Below, one piece after another: positions 5,793 through 10,514 of a stretch of 64,000 bases of DNA. The stretch is taken from positions 186,001-250,000 of the forward strand of contig NZ_JAFBCY010000001.1 of assembly GCF_016907975.1 (NCBI RefSeq). The letters run 5' to 3'. Under the pieces are notes generated by a model. That model was not told where the DNA came from. It saw only the letters and a list, made by a program, of their open reading frames with translations, and did not search any database. This DNA is from Methylopila capsulata. Lineage in GTDB: Bacteria > Pseudomonadota > Alphaproteobacteria > Rhizobiales > Methylopilaceae. Both the position numbers and the translations under genes were made by a program. Each line of letters starts with the position of its first letter. Positions within the stretch are counted from its first letter, which is position 1.

Positions 5793-6551
5793 TCAGATGT
5801 CGCCGGGGACGTTGTCGCCGTAGGGCGGCCGCGGGATCTCGATGTGCGCGGTCCGCAACGCCGCCGACCACCGCTCGCGAAGATCGAGGAAATACGGCTC
5901 CGTCGGCTCGATCCTGTAATCGAGCTCGGGCGTCAGGGCGTCCTTCCGCAGCACGAGAACGTCGATGGGCGGCCCGACGCCGAGGTTCGAGCGCATCGTC
6001 GAATCCATCGAGATCAGGCCGATCTTGAGCGCGTCGTAGAGCTCGGTCTCGTACTTCACCGCCCGGTCGAGGATGGGCTTGCCGTACTTGTGCTCGCCGA
6101 TCTGGAAATAGGGCGTGTCCGGCGTCACCTCGATGAAGTTGCCAGCGGCGTAGATCATGAAGAGGCGCAGGCGTCCGCCGGCGACCTGGCCGCCGAACAG
6201 CAACTGCACGTCGAAGCGCGCGGACATCTGCTCCAGGCTGGGGCCGTCGGTGCGCCACACCTCGCGCACGGCGCGGCCCACGAGTTGGGCCGCCTTGAAC
6301 ATGGTCGGCTGATTCTCGAGCGTCTCGAGCTCTCCGGTCTCCGGGTTCTCGAGTCCCTCCGCCAGAAGGCTCAGGACGGACTGGCTGATCGAGAGGTTCC
6401 CGGAGGTCGCGATCGCCAGCACGCGGCGGCCCTTCTCCGAGACGATCTTGAGTTTCCTGAAGACCGCGATGTTGTCGATGCCTGCGTTCGTGCGCGTGTC
6501 GGCGATCATGACGAGGCCGTCGCGGACGAGAATGCCGACGCAATAGGTCAT
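5793..6551 (-). CDS. Anbu-type proteasome-like peptidase
   Basis: Ancestral beta-subunit-like member of the proteasome/HslV family of N-terminal nucleophile hydrolases, 252 residues. The sequence begins MTYCVG, so removal of the first Met would expose Thr1; Asp17 and a Lys at 32 (mature numbering) occupy the usual active-site positions. Anbu proteins form open helical rings, and their substrates are unclear. It is the last gene of a leftward cluster with ATP-grasp, alpha-E, transglutaminase and membrane proteins, the usual company of Anbu, which suggests it processes the product of those enzymes. It is 126 bp downstream of the membrane protein gene, so it may also have its own promoter. Confidence 0.92.
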   Translation of the reverse strand: MTYCVGILVRDGLVMIADTRTNAGIDNIAVFRKLKIVSEKGRRVLAIATSGNLSISQSVLSLLAEGLENPETGELETLENQPTMFKAAQLVGRAVREVWRTDGPSLEQMSARFDVQLLFGGQVAGGRLRLFMIYAAGNFIEVTPDTPYFQIGEHKYGKPILDRAVKYETELYDALKIGLISMDSTMRSNLGVGPPIDVLVLRKDALTPELDYRIEPTEPYFLDLRERWSAALRTAHIEIPRPPYGDNVPGDI

Positions 6552-6677
6552 GATACGCTTGAGCCCCGGCTGACGTGACGCGGGACGCTATCAAGAGACT
6601 CCCGCCAGCGCCAATGACTTGCGGCCCGATCCCGCATGGAAGCGGGGCAGGCGTGACATTTGGGCGCCGGCGGCGGC

Positions 6678-7118
6678 TCAGATCGCGTGCGCCGCGCTCC
6701 GCGGACCGACGATCCGGAGCAGAAGCGCCGTCCCCAGGCCCCATGCGCCGTTTACGGCCAGCGCCACGAGAACTCCGGCGAGCGGGAACCCGCCGCCCAC
6801 GGGCGCGCCCTTAAGCGGCTGCACCACGAACCATGCGACCAGGCTCGGGGCGATCGCGCCGAAGAGCAGGGCGACGATCCAATAGCTCGGGGATTTGGGA
6901 AACCGGAGCAGAAGGAACGCCAAGGCGACGCCCCAGAGGCCGCCGAAGAAGCTCGCGGAGATCACCCGGGCAACGCCGAACGGCGCCGTCGGCGCCAGGG
7001 ACCAGGGCTGCGCCGCCGTTAGGCCGCCTGCGGCGAGAAGCGCGAGCATGCCTTGATGGAACACCAGCACCGAAACGAACCCGGCCGCGAAGGCGGCCGC
7101 CAAACGATATCCAGTCAT
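6678..7118 (-). CDS. Small membrane protein of unknown function in the Anbu cluster
   Basis: 146 residues with about four predicted membrane helices: near 4-32 (containing FHQGML), 50-70, 78-100 and 115-135. Motifs include FHQG in the first helix and APTAPFGV after it. The sequence resembles a widespread unnamed proteobacterial family of small FHQG-containing membrane proteins, but I know of no function. The ATG at 7118 is preceded by AAGGA at good distance; longer readings upstream overlap the transglutaminase gene and are not credible. It lies 43 bp after the transglutaminase gene and before Anbu, so it belongs to that transcription unit and may tie the system to the membrane. Confidence 0.8.
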   Translation of the reverse strand: MTGYRLAAAFAAGFVSVLVFHQGMLALLAAGGLTAAQPWSLAPTAPFGVARVISASFFGGLWGVALAFLLLRFPKSPSYWIVALLFGAIAPSLVAWFVVQPLKGAPVGGGFPLAGVLVALAVNGAWGLGTALLLRIVGPRSAAHAI

Positions 7119-7161
7119 GCGAGATCCTTGATCGCGCGGCGCTGCGCCGCCTGATCGAGAT

Positions 7162-8061
7162 CTAGCGCTGCGACTGCGTCTGCCCACCGATGGCGGGCGT
7201 ATCGGGCCCGGGATCGTTGCGGACGTTTCGACGGTAGTTGCGCGTGGCTTGGCAGTCGCTGACCACGGCGGAAATGTCGAGCGTCTCGCCGCCGCCGCCG
7301 TAATGGGTCCCGCGGACGGGGGCCGCGCCAAGGTAATCGAGCGCGCTCGCGAGCCGGACGTGCCGGTCCGTGGTGGATACGCCGGTCGAAGGGTCGAACC
7401 CCACCCAGCCGAGGCCCGGCACATGGGCTTCGACCCAGGCGTGGCCGCCGTCGTTCGCGGGCTCCGCTTCATCCTCGCGCCGGTAGTAGCCGCTGACGTA
7501 GCGCGCGGGAATGCCGAGGTGGCGAGCGGCGACCAGGAAGACATGGGCCAGGTCGTGGCTCGCGCCGCGTTTCAGGCGGAACGCTTCGGCCGCCGTCGTC
7601 ATGCTGTCGCGCGGGCCGCGCTCGTAGGTCATGTCCTCGTGCAGCGTTGCCAGCAGAGTGTGGAGTTGCGCCAGCACGTCGCCGGGGCTCTCCGAGATGA
7701 CGGCTTCGGCGTAGGCGCCGATGTCGAGATCCGGCGCCGTAAGGTCAGTATTCCGCAGGTAGAGCGCAGGCGGGAAGCGCTCGAGCGTCGAGCGCACCAC
7801 GCCGGCGTTGTCCAGCGTCTCCACTTCGCCCTCGACCAGCACGGTCAGGGTCTCGATCGGACCCTCGGCGGCGAACACATGCGTGAGGTTGCCGAAGGCG
7901 TCCTCCGACGAGCGGAGGCGGCAGTTGCGGTCGACGTCGAGCCGCCACCGAACCACGTGCTGGCCCTCGTAGTTTCGCGGCGTCAGTCGAAGGGTCTGGA
8001 CGACCGCGCTCGCGGGGGTCTCGAAGCCGTAGGTGATCTGATGGCGAATGCTCAGGCGCAT
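7162..8061 (-). CDS. Transglutaminase-like protein of the Anbu cluster, catalytic Cys replaced by Ser
   Basis: 299 residues: an N-terminal beta domain of bacterial transglutaminase-like proteins (about 1-100) and a transglutaminase-fold core (about 125-235). The core has RGASHDLAHVF, then ARHLGIPARYVSGYY, GGHAWVEAH and GWVGFDPSTG. The His (207) and Asp (223) of the triad are present, but the position that is normally Cys (as in GVCQD) is Ser168, codon AGC at 7558-7560. The protein may be inactive as a thiol enzyme, use serine, or serve as a binding protein. It lies between the alpha-E gene (40 bp upstream) and the membrane protein gene. Confidence 0.92.
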   Translation of the reverse strand: MRLSIRHQITYGFETPASAVVQTLRLTPRNYEGQHVVRWRLDVDRNCRLRSSEDAFGNLTHVFAAEGPIETLTVLVEGEVETLDNAGVVRSTLERFPPALYLRNTDLTAPDLDIGAYAEAVISESPGDVLAQLHTLLATLHEDMTYERGPRDSMTTAAEAFRLKRGASHDLAHVFLVAARHLGIPARYVSGYYRREDEAEPANDGGHAWVEAHVPGLGWVGFDPSTGVSTTDRHVRLASALDYLGAAPVRGTHYGGGGETLDISAVVSDCQATRNYRRNVRNDPGPDTPAIGGQTQSQR

Positions 8062-8101
8062 GAACCGTCCGGTCCCATGTCGTCGAAATGAGGCGTGCGC
8101 G

Positions 8102-9043
8102 TCATACCAGGTACTGCTCCGCGATCGCGGCGCCGAGGCGGTTGTTGTCCGCGATGAACTCGGTGATGAACTCGTGCAGACCCCCCTGGAAGACCTGCTT
8201 GATCTCGGCGTTTTCGAGCTTGATCCGGGTCGAGCGGGCGATCCGCTGAGCGGGCCCCTGACGTCCGTAGCCGCTGGCGAGATCGTCGAGGTGCCGCACC
8301 AGGTCGCCGTAGCAGGCGGCGAGCGACCGCGGCATCTGGTCGTTGAGGATCAGCAGGTCAGCGATCAGCCACGGCTTCAGGCTTTCGCGGTACACCCAAT
8401 GATAGCTCGTGACCGCCGACACCGCCCGCAGGATGGCCGACCACTGGTAGTAGTCCAGCCCGCCGCCGACCTGCGTCTCCTTCGGCAGCAGCAGGTGGTA
8501 CTTCACGTCGAGGATGCGCGCGGTGTTGTCCGCCCGCTCCAGCAGCATGCCGAGCCGAGAGAAGTCGTAGATGTCGTTCCGCAGCATCGTGCGGTGGCCG
8601 GAGCCGTCGAACCGGAGCCCGATCTCCTTGACCCAGCCGAGGAAGCGCGTGAGCTCCTCGCCCTCGAGCTTCCGATCCTGCCGCCGACGCAGCTCGAGCC
8701 AGGCGCCGTTGATGGCCTCCCACATCTCCACGGTCAGCGCCGTGCGAACCGCGCGGGCGTTGTGCCGGGCGACCTCGAAGCAACTGACGATCGAGGAGGG
8801 GTTCTCCTTCTCGAACACGAGGTAGTCGATCACGGTCTCGGCCGTGGCGTCCTCGTACTTCGCGAAGAACCCATCGTCGCAGCCCGCGGTGAAGACCGCG
8901 CTCTCCCACTCGTTGCTGGAGCCGGCGTAGGCCACGGGAAGCGACGCGAGGCGCTGGGTCGCCTCCAGGATGCGGGCGAGCGCTTCCGCGCGCTCGACGT
9001 AGCGCGACAGCCAGAACAGGTTGTCGGCGGTGCGGCTCAGCAT
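8102..9043 (-). CDS. Alpha-E domain protein (DUF403)
   Basis: 313-residue, mostly helical protein of the alpha-E family, recognised from the N-terminal signature MLSRTADNLFWLSRYVERAE and the SRLGMLLERADNTARILD region near 185. It is almost always encoded next to the circularly permuted ATP-grasp protein and a transglutaminase, and is thought to act with them in a peptide ligation or modification pathway; its biochemical role is unproven. The ATP-grasp gene ends 49 bp upstream and the transglutaminase gene starts 40 bp downstream, so cotranscription is likely. Confidence 0.95.
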   Translation of the reverse strand: MLSRTADNLFWLSRYVERAEALARILEATQRLASLPVAYAGSSNEWESAVFTAGCDDGFFAKYEDATAETVIDYLVFEKENPSSIVSCFEVARHNARAVRTALTVEMWEAINGAWLELRRRQDRKLEGEELTRFLGWVKEIGLRFDGSGHRTMLRNDIYDFSRLGMLLERADNTARILDVKYHLLLPKETQVGGGLDYYQWSAILRAVSAVTSYHWVYRESLKPWLIADLLILNDQMPRSLAACYGDLVRHLDDLASGYGRQGPAQRIARSTRIKLENAEIKQVFQGGLHEFITEFIADNNRLGAAIAEQYLV

Positions 9044-9092
9044 ACGGGCGGCGTCCTCGTTCGTCCTGCGGTCATGGGTTCGGCGGCGATGC

Positions 9093-10514
9093 TCATTCGT
9101 CCAGCACCCAGGTGTCCTTGGTGCCGCCGCCCTGGCTCGAGTTCACCACCAGCGACCCTTCGCGCATCGCCACGCGGGTGAGGCCGCCGGGCACGATCCG
9201 GACGCCGTCGGAGCCCGTCAGCACGAAGGGCCTGAGATCCACGTGCCGCGGCGCGACGCCGGAGTTCACGTAGGTCGGGCACGTCGAGAGCGCGAGCGTC
9301 GGCTGCGCGATGAACCCGGCCGGCGAGGCGATGAGCTTGGCGCGGAACAGCTCGATCTGCTCCTTCGAGGCGTGGGGCCCGACGAGCATGCCGTAGCCGC
9401 CGGAGCCGTGGACCTCCTTCACCACCAGCTCGGGCAGGTGGTCGAGCACGTATTTCAGCGCTTCCGGTTCGCGGCAGCGGTAGGTCGGCACGTTCTTCAG
9501 GATCGGCTCGGCGCCGAGGTAGAATTTGATGATCTCCGGCATGTAGCTGTAGATCGCCTTGTCGTCGGCGACGCCCGTGCCGACCGCGTTGGTCAGCGTG
9601 ACGTTGCCGGCGTGGTAGGCGGCCATCAGCCCCGGCACGCCGAGCACGCTGTCGGGCCGGAACACCAGCGGGTCCAGGAACTCGTCGTCGAGCCGGCGAT
9701 AGATCACGTCGACCCGCTTCGGCCCTTCGGTCGTCCGCATGTAGACGACGTCGTCCCGCACGAAGAGGTCGCGTCCCTCCACCAATTCGATGCCGAGCTT
9801 GTCGGCGAGGAACGAGTGCTCGTAATAGGCCGAGTTGTAGACGCCGGGCGTCAGCAGCACGACGTTGGGATCGGCCGAGGACGACCGTGGCGCGAGCGAC
9901 CGCAGCGTGGCGAGCAGTTCGTCGGAGTAACGTTCGACCGGCGCCACCCGATGACGCGAGAACAGCTCCGGGAACAGGCGGATCATCACCTCCCGGTTTT
10001 CCAGCATGTAGGAGACGCCAGAAGGCGTGCGGGCGTTGTCTTCGAGGACATAGAAGGTCTCGGAGTCCACCCGCACGATGTCGATGCCGGCGATGTGCAC
10101 CCAGATGTCGTGCGGCGGAGTCTTGCCCGCCATCTCTGGGCGGAACGCCTCGTTCTGGAAGACCAGGTCCTCCGGAATGATGCCGGCCTTAAGAATCTCG
10201 CGGCGGCCGTAGATGTCCGAAATGAAGCGGTTCAGCGCGTCGACGCGCTGCTCCAGCCCGACGCTCAGGCGTCCCCACTCCTCGGCGGTGATAATCCGCG
10301 GAATGATGTCGAACGGGATCAGCCGCTCCTGCGCCTGCTGGTCGCCATAGACCGCGAAGGTGATGCCGATGCGCCGGAACAGAAGCTCCGCCTCTTCGAC
10401 GCGGTAGTTCAGCAGCTCGGCGGGGGCCGTCTTAAGCCATTCCGAAAGCTTGGCGTACGCCTGCCGGACGGAGCCGTCGGCCAGGGTCATTTCATCGAAA
10501 GGTGCGGTGCTCAA
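9093..10514 (-). CDS. Circularly permuted type 2 ATP-grasp protein
   Basis: 473 residues, full length for the family. ATP-grasp enzymes activate a carboxylate as acyl phosphate and join it to an amine; the substrate of this family is not known. Family landmarks are FEDN-like EDNARTPSGVSYMLENRE near 155, LTPGVYNSAYYEHSFLAD near 220, NAVGTGVADDKAIYSYMPE near 310, and the glycine-rich VHGSGGYGMLVGP near 375 that should contact ATP. It is the first gene of the five-gene leftward unit ending with Anbu. Confidence 0.95.
   Translation of the reverse strand: MSTAPFDEMTLADGSVRQAYAKLSEWLKTAPAELLNYRVEEAELLFRRIGITFAVYGDQQAQERLIPFDIIPRIITAEEWGRLSVGLEQRVDALNRFISDIYGRREILKAGIIPEDLVFQNEAFRPEMAGKTPPHDIWVHIAGIDIVRVDSETFYVLEDNARTPSGVSYMLENREVMIRLFPELFSRHRVAPVERYSDELLATLRSLAPRSSSADPNVVLLTPGVYNSAYYEHSFLADKLGIELVEGRDLFVRDDVVYMRTTEGPKRVDVIYRRLDDEFLDPLVFRPDSVLGVPGLMAAYHAGNVTLTNAVGTGVADDKAIYSYMPEIIKFYLGAEPILKNVPTYRCREPEALKYVLDHLPELVVKEVHGSGGYGMLVGPHASKEQIELFRAKLIASPAGFIAQPTLALSTCPTYVNSGVAPRHVDLRPFVLTGSDGVRIVPGGLTRVAMREGSLVVNSSQGGGTKDTWVLDE

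Follow-up and report, generated by a model that had tools for sequence, protein, structure and literature searches.

Can an operon keep a transglutaminase (TG) that has lost its catalytic cysteine? The question is raised by five genes in a 64,000-nucleotide stretch of the Methylopila capsulata genome (NCBI RefSeq assembly GCF_016907975.1, contig NZ_JAFBCY010000001.1, positions 186,001 to 250,000; hereafter, the window). These genes, at positions 5793-10514 and all on the minus strand, encode in this order an ATP-grasp protein, an Alpha-E protein, a TG-fold protein, a small membrane protein with an FHQG motif (MEM), and the proteasome-like peptidase Anbu. An earlier note on this DNA had assigned the ATP-grasp, Alpha-E, TG, and Anbu families correctly; its view of the cluster as a candidate for an undescribed system did not hold, because an operon of these four genes is described in the accessible parts of PMC5666114 and PMC6376114, both citing Iyer 2009. 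The window matches that operon in the four families, their order, and their common strand, and its Anbu triad and near-invariant ATP-grasp columns are intact. It differs in that its TG lacks the catalytic Cys and in that MEM is interposed between TG and Anbu. The four-gene part is thus already known, and the new point is the dead TG. From sequence comparison, we consider it somewhat probable that the TG fold serves as a structural, non-catalytic subunit and that the core chemistry would be ATP-grasp ligation and Anbu hydrolysis.

The loss is seen in the motif around the nucleophile. The window TG reads GASHD where most relatives have GVCQD, and Ser168 aligns with the Cys of 3isr. The protein belongs to the TG fold by its Transglut_core match and by its predicted model (mean predicted local distance difference test score [pLDDT], 86; closest fold, 3isr, with a template modeling score of 0.70). 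It keeps the His and Asp of the Cys-His-Asp triad, which we take to be the catalytic triad of transglutaminases; the Cys is missing. The accessible text of PMC10318531 is consistent with this assignment. Two close species, G125 and G126, have the same Ser at the Cys position, and its presence in three genomes rules out a sequencing error. Ser168 as a substitute nucleophile was also ruled out, since the residue at this position is A, V, P, Y, or G in other lineages. The working transglutaminase assumed in the earlier note is therefore contradicted by the serine in place of the catalytic Cys.

We then analyzed the selection on the dead gene, using the ratio of nonsynonymous to synonymous substitution rates (dN/dS; all values are simple NG86 values from pairs at differing distances). 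Among three close species, the TG frame was open in all three and the dN/dS was 0.076 to 0.081. The corresponding values for Anbu were 0.008 to 0.016, and those for ATP-grasp and Alpha-E, from the window and Methylopila sp. Yamaguchi only, were 0.007 and 0.018. The Cys-bearing TG pairs of the genus gave 0.097 (G128/G127), 0.199 (G111/G123), and 0.376 (G034/G076), and the window TG gave 0.335 against the Cys-bearing G111 and 0.292 against the Cys-less G121. With a dN/dS of about 0.08 in the window's clade, the dead TG evolves under purifying selection and so looks like a kept pseudoenzyme by this sequence measure. A dying gene whose conservation is a lag would fit the loss of the His as well in some lineages (L097, L102, L103, and L104) and the absence of TG from nine loci of the class sample. 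However, the frame is open in three close species and the dN/dS lies below that of the three Cys-bearing pairs, which makes such decay quite improbable.

Judging from the sequences sampled, the TG Cys has been lost repeatedly, mostly in the window's order. The order sample contained 77 Anbu neighborhoods, with 63 TGs that have the Cys, 12 that do not, and 2 neighborhoods without TG; that is, the Cys is lost in 12 of the 75 Anbu-linked TGs. Within the genus, where Anbu and TG were found in 13/13 genomes, G121 (GTAQD) is Cys-less separately from the window trio (GASHD), eight others have the Cys, and in G122 (L239; a single contig, 88% complete) the TG is broken by a frame change, with one piece reading GTPQD. 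A further order member, L376 (G553), has GVGQD at the catalytic position. In the class outside the order, 80 of 83 neighborhoods were taken in (G203, G263, and G363 were left out). Thirty-six had a Cys TG beside Alpha-E, two had a TG without the Cys, five had a Cys TG without Alpha-E (in some, the match is not the operon TG), and 28, some at contig ends, had neither Alpha-E nor a TG of 100 bits. Eight loci had Alpha-E and no TG; L320 was added to them by hand, its TG-like match being a distant large open reading frame (ORF) on the opposite strand. In these nine loci, ATP-grasp, Alpha-E, and Anbu stand in a row with an Alpha-E to Anbu gap of 33 to 325 bp, which is too short for a TG. Such three-gene units were seen at L280, L284, L289, L296, L301, L302, L307, L318, and L320 and, in the phylum sample, at L405. 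The phylum sample had Anbu in 85 of 249 genomes, and 41 loci were read (21 short and 20 long), three of which (L381, L386, and class kin) overlap genomes already sampled. Outside the Alphaproteobacteria, the Cys is kept in 22/22 loci whose TG motif could be read, although eight of these (L406 to L413) have weaker TGs of 129 to 165 bits, and in seven of the eight, TG and Alpha-E are on opposite strands.

A tree was built from ATP-grasp and Anbu for 146 selected rows from the order, the class, and the named loci, 19 of them Cys-less. On this tree, made by a quick method with many open forks and a long-branch warning, the Cys-less state requires at least 8 changes, 7 of them forced by well-supported branches. 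The absence of TG (8 rows, before L320 was reassigned) requires 6 changes, 4 of them forced. Because loss is easier than regain, we infer that the changes at the Cys position run as loss. L071, L072, L149, L150, and L151 were left out of the tally of residues because they are duplicates or split loci; the tree restored L149 and, of the 73 named loci L156 to L228, drew on just 23, with few of the many from Bradyrhizobium. Substitutes at the Cys position include S, A, V, P, Y, and G, so no alternative nucleophile is favored. Counting duplicates, 20 of 25 Cys-less rows retain both the His and the Asp.

In dead-TG rows, ATP-grasp is nearly unchanged at its conserved positions, and the Anbu triad stays intact. 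Across 142 near-invariant ATP-grasp columns, 10 of the 11 dead-TG rows in the order sample show no departure and L102 shows one; across 39 such columns in Anbu, 12/12 rows show none. The Anbu triad is intact in 146/146 tree rows. When columns conserved at 95% were used in the wider set, departures were no more numerous in Cys-less than in Cys rows, either for ATP-grasp or for Anbu (one-sided P = 0.99 for both). Rows without any TG did have more departures than Cys rows in ATP-grasp (P = 0.012) and in Alpha-E (P = 0.014) and not clearly more in Anbu (P = 0.11).

The best explanation would be an Anbu operon member whose TG-fold subunit has probably turned into a retained pseudoenzyme. The ATP-grasp protein, partnered by Alpha-E, would form an amide in an ATP-dependent way as the core chemistry, and Anbu would hydrolyze that product or tag. 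The TG fold may bind or position Alpha-E, ATP-grasp, or the product, and TG catalysis, where present, may be a dispensable addition, open to being lost or taken over by other TG genes. The system probably works in nitrogen starvation. In the accessible text of PMC6376114, the proposed roles of the Anbu operon are given as without experimental confirmation, and the TG is counted as one of two amide-forming proteins. According to work cited in the accessible parts of PMC5666114 and PMC6376114, Anbu is upregulated in nitrogen-limited P. putida. A Burkholderia DUF403/404/407/TG cluster is NtrC dependent in PMC5491218, in whose accessible part Anbu is unnamed.

Several observations weigh against a structural role of the TG fold or the scheme around it. 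Coexpression of the Y. bercovieri operon proteins gave no specific interaction among them (PMC6376114, accessible part), and in P. aeruginosa, coexpression gave no different form of Anbu (PMC5666114, accessible part). A search for sigma-54 sites in the window gave 15 matches versus 15.4 expected, none above chance. Cys-bearing TGs of the genus also diverge fast, with mostly 56 to 82% identity and one pair at 91%, and purifying selection on the dead TG was measured in one clade. In the wider set, L298 and L102 depart at 7 and 3, respectively, of 162 ATP-grasp columns. Finally, catalysis in trans is possible, because each of the 12 dead-TG order genomes carries four or more TG-family matches. 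If TG catalysis is needed and other genomic TGs supply it, the Cys of the operon copy would be free to go. At least four TG matches were found in 12/12 dead-TG genomes versus 30/63 Cys-bearing genomes (Fisher P = 7.5e-4, kinship ignored), and the TG of a second cluster in the window's genome has GVCQDF. On the other hand, the number of TG matches tracks genome size and lineage as well, and supply in trans alone leaves unexplained why the dead copy persists under purifying selection. We regard it as the main rival, possible if on balance doubtful; a structural TG and catalysis in trans can both hold.

In the wider set, Cys-less rows exceed Cys rows in Alpha-E departures (P = 0.007; the rows are not independent), and in the most altered rows the losses cluster at Asp179, Tyr182, Leu186, Pro187, and His290. 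The ER motif of Alpha-E (E17-R18 and E169-R170) holds in the dead-TG rows. Tyr182, a site picked after the data had been seen, is altered in 7 of 19 dead-TG rows versus 2 of 118 Cys rows, the change being to Phe in each of these two. Phylogenetic pairs for joint loss of Tyr182 and the Cys numbered about one to three informative ones, and the sign test was not significant. Seven of the 19 dead-TG rows have no Alpha-E departure, and L297 keeps the Cys and nonetheless has an altered loop. The AlphaFold model of Alpha-E (mean pLDDT, 79.5) has low confidence at residues 182-187, 189-191, and 201-224, as would be expected of an unpaired flexible loop. One could propose that TG catalysis and the Alpha-E loop residues form a separable layer, in which TG acts on or with Alpha-E, and that several lineages shed it as a unit as the ATP-grasp/Anbu core persists. 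The dead TG of the Methylopila clade would then be paired with a new membrane protein, convergent with RloB (described below). We consider this combined proposal rather unlikely.

A dead TG next to an ATP-grasp protein and a peptidase has a precedent, by analogy only, in RloB. According to the accessible text of PMC12239564, the rlo operon of Pseudomonas encodes RloA, a retropepsin-like protein; RloB, an inactive TG fused to seven transmembrane helices; and RloC, an ATP-grasp protein. The window likewise combines a dead TG fold, an ATP-grasp protein, and a peptidase within one operon, and its membrane protein is separate. Unlike in rlo, for which no Alpha-E is named, its peptidase is proteasome-like and not retropepsin-like, and its TG frame holds two TG domains only, with no transmembrane fusion. 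The second cluster of the window's genome (L002, contig C2, 693537-697367) also has ATP-grasp and Alpha-E, here fused, followed by TG; in contrast to the window's unit, its TG keeps the Cys and Anbu is absent from it, the sole Anbu match in this genome being that of the window. Anbu was also found apart from the ATP-grasp/Alpha-E/TG trio in two congeners, G034 (L071/L089, about 212 kb) and G076 (L072/L090, about 607 kb). We found no report of TG Cys loss in Anbu operons in the accessible open literature, and Iyer 2009 may say more. In PMC5666114, the term inactive is applied to proteasome alpha subunits and to Anbu.

The five genes, at the coordinates given in the earlier note, proved real by their reading frames and Pfam matches. 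Table 1 lists them together with the codons discussed above.

Table 1. Genes and key codons of the Anbu unit (window positions)
Feature	Positions	Strand	Remarks
ATP-grasp, circularly permuted, predicted amide/peptide ligase	9093..10514	-	TTG start, 473 aa
Alpha-E, all-helical	8102..9043	-	313 aa; Pfam Alpha-E, E 1.9e-94
TG, transglutaminase fold, putative pseudoenzyme	7162..8061	-	299 aa; Bact_transglu_N and Transglut_core, E 5.1e-21 and 3.3e-20
MEM, small FHQG membrane protein	6678..7118	-	146 aa; clade-specific, between TG and Anbu
Anbu, proteasome-like peptidase	5793..6551	-	252 aa; Pfam Proteasome, E 7.2e-6
TG Ser168, at catalytic Cys position (GASHD)	7558..7560	-	codon AGC; from alignment with relatives
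Alpha-E Tyr182 codon	8498..8500	-	loop 179-201 and His290 altered in some dead-TG lineages; intact here
Alpha-E His290 codon	8174..8176	-	intact here

The ATP-grasp protein matches Pfam CP_ATPgrasp_1 and CP_ATPgrasp_2 (E values of 8.1e-157 and 8e-169) and has a solved relative, 3n6x (E = 5.1e-206). For Alpha-E, a PDB relative was found neither by phmmer at an E value of ≤1 nor by Foldseek at an E value of ≤0.001. For Anbu, the solved entries 5loy, 5nyj, 5nyf, 5nyw, and 5lox, which are themselves Anbu, all match with an E value of 2.4e-62 or better; the window's protein has the catalytic Thr1, Asp17, and Lys32 (mature numbering) given in the accessible text of PMC6376114. The nearest named genome is that of Methylopila sp. 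Yamaguchi, with 99% identity in Anbu (the comparison may omit the window genome's own records). By Pfam, the unit is flanked by RadC upstream and a DUF2155 gene downstream. From ATP-grasp to Anbu, the intergenic spacings are 49, 40, 43, and 126 bp. Cotranscription of the five genes appears plausible from the sequence, because terminator-like sites were no more frequent than chance (3 versus a mean of 2.0 in shuffles).

The gene interposed between TG and Anbu is a genuine gene under purifying selection, with a dN/dS of 0.12 to 0.14 among three close species. Its product has FHQG at residues 20-23 and four hydrophobic segments by a simple sliding-window count in the reading frame; searches of Pfam and NCBIfam gave no family match. 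MEM was found in 3 of the 13 genus genomes; among these three, Anbu is 99 to 100% identical, and each has MEM placed between the TG and Anbu genes. The order sample, queried with the single protein, had MEM in 7/121 genomes (the window's own included) and Anbu in 76/121. Five of the six other MEM genomes have Anbu; in two it lies on a different contig from MEM, and in three it is about 420 to 540 kb off. The class sample, searched with an alignment model, had MEM in 16/289 genomes (again including the window's own) and Anbu in 81/289. Eight of the 15 others have Anbu, seven on a different contig and one at 656 kb. Outside the window's clade, MEM adjoined Anbu in 0/6 order and 0/15 class genomes; the MEM matches in G051, G019, and G211 are weak (E values of 1e-4 to 8e-4), and fragmentation affects several assemblies. 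The neighbors inspected around MEM homologues elsewhere differ between loci, with no fixed partner. Judged by eye from translations, they include an amidase-like protein in L366 and a phosphatase-like protein in L361. Clustering of neighboring ORFs gave two further groups, of 13 and 8 loci, whose printed examples lie antisense over MEM.

The earlier note had suggested that MEM is a membrane-linked fifth part of the unit, and the survey of co-occurrence that it asked for ran against this: no linkage to Anbu was found beyond one clade. MEM as a general fifth component is not supported by the genus, order, and class samples. Its tight spacing, shared strand, and place between TG and Anbu kept in three close species, together with its dN/dS, speak for a functional membrane-linked component of a five-part Anbu system, as does the somewhat higher frequency of Anbu in MEM-bearing class genomes (8/15 versus 81/289 overall; raw counts, kinship ignored). 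However, MEM was not found in 10/13 genus, 114/121 order, and 273/289 class genomes, its homologues elsewhere sit beside varying genes, and the gap between TG and Anbu carries other inserts as well, being longer than 350 bp at 47 of the 189 same-strand loci (many from Bradyrhizobium, and some counted twice). We consider such a five-part system very improbable. Because MEM is kept in place and under purifying selection within one clade, it may have been recruited locally into the unit there, and it is at most a local accessory. In many Bradyrhizobium loci (e.g., L186 and L220), a short conserved frame of about 135 amino acids, starting with MATVKLLSDDEL, lies between TG and Anbu; it is another lineage-specific insert.

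That the TG nucleophile has disappeared more than once while the Anbu triad stayed intact and ATP-grasp barely changed amounts to a natural experiment. The pattern of Cys loss suggests which activities the Anbu system can do without, and that dispensability could be tested within one genus, whose genomes include both Cys-bearing and Cys-less TGs.

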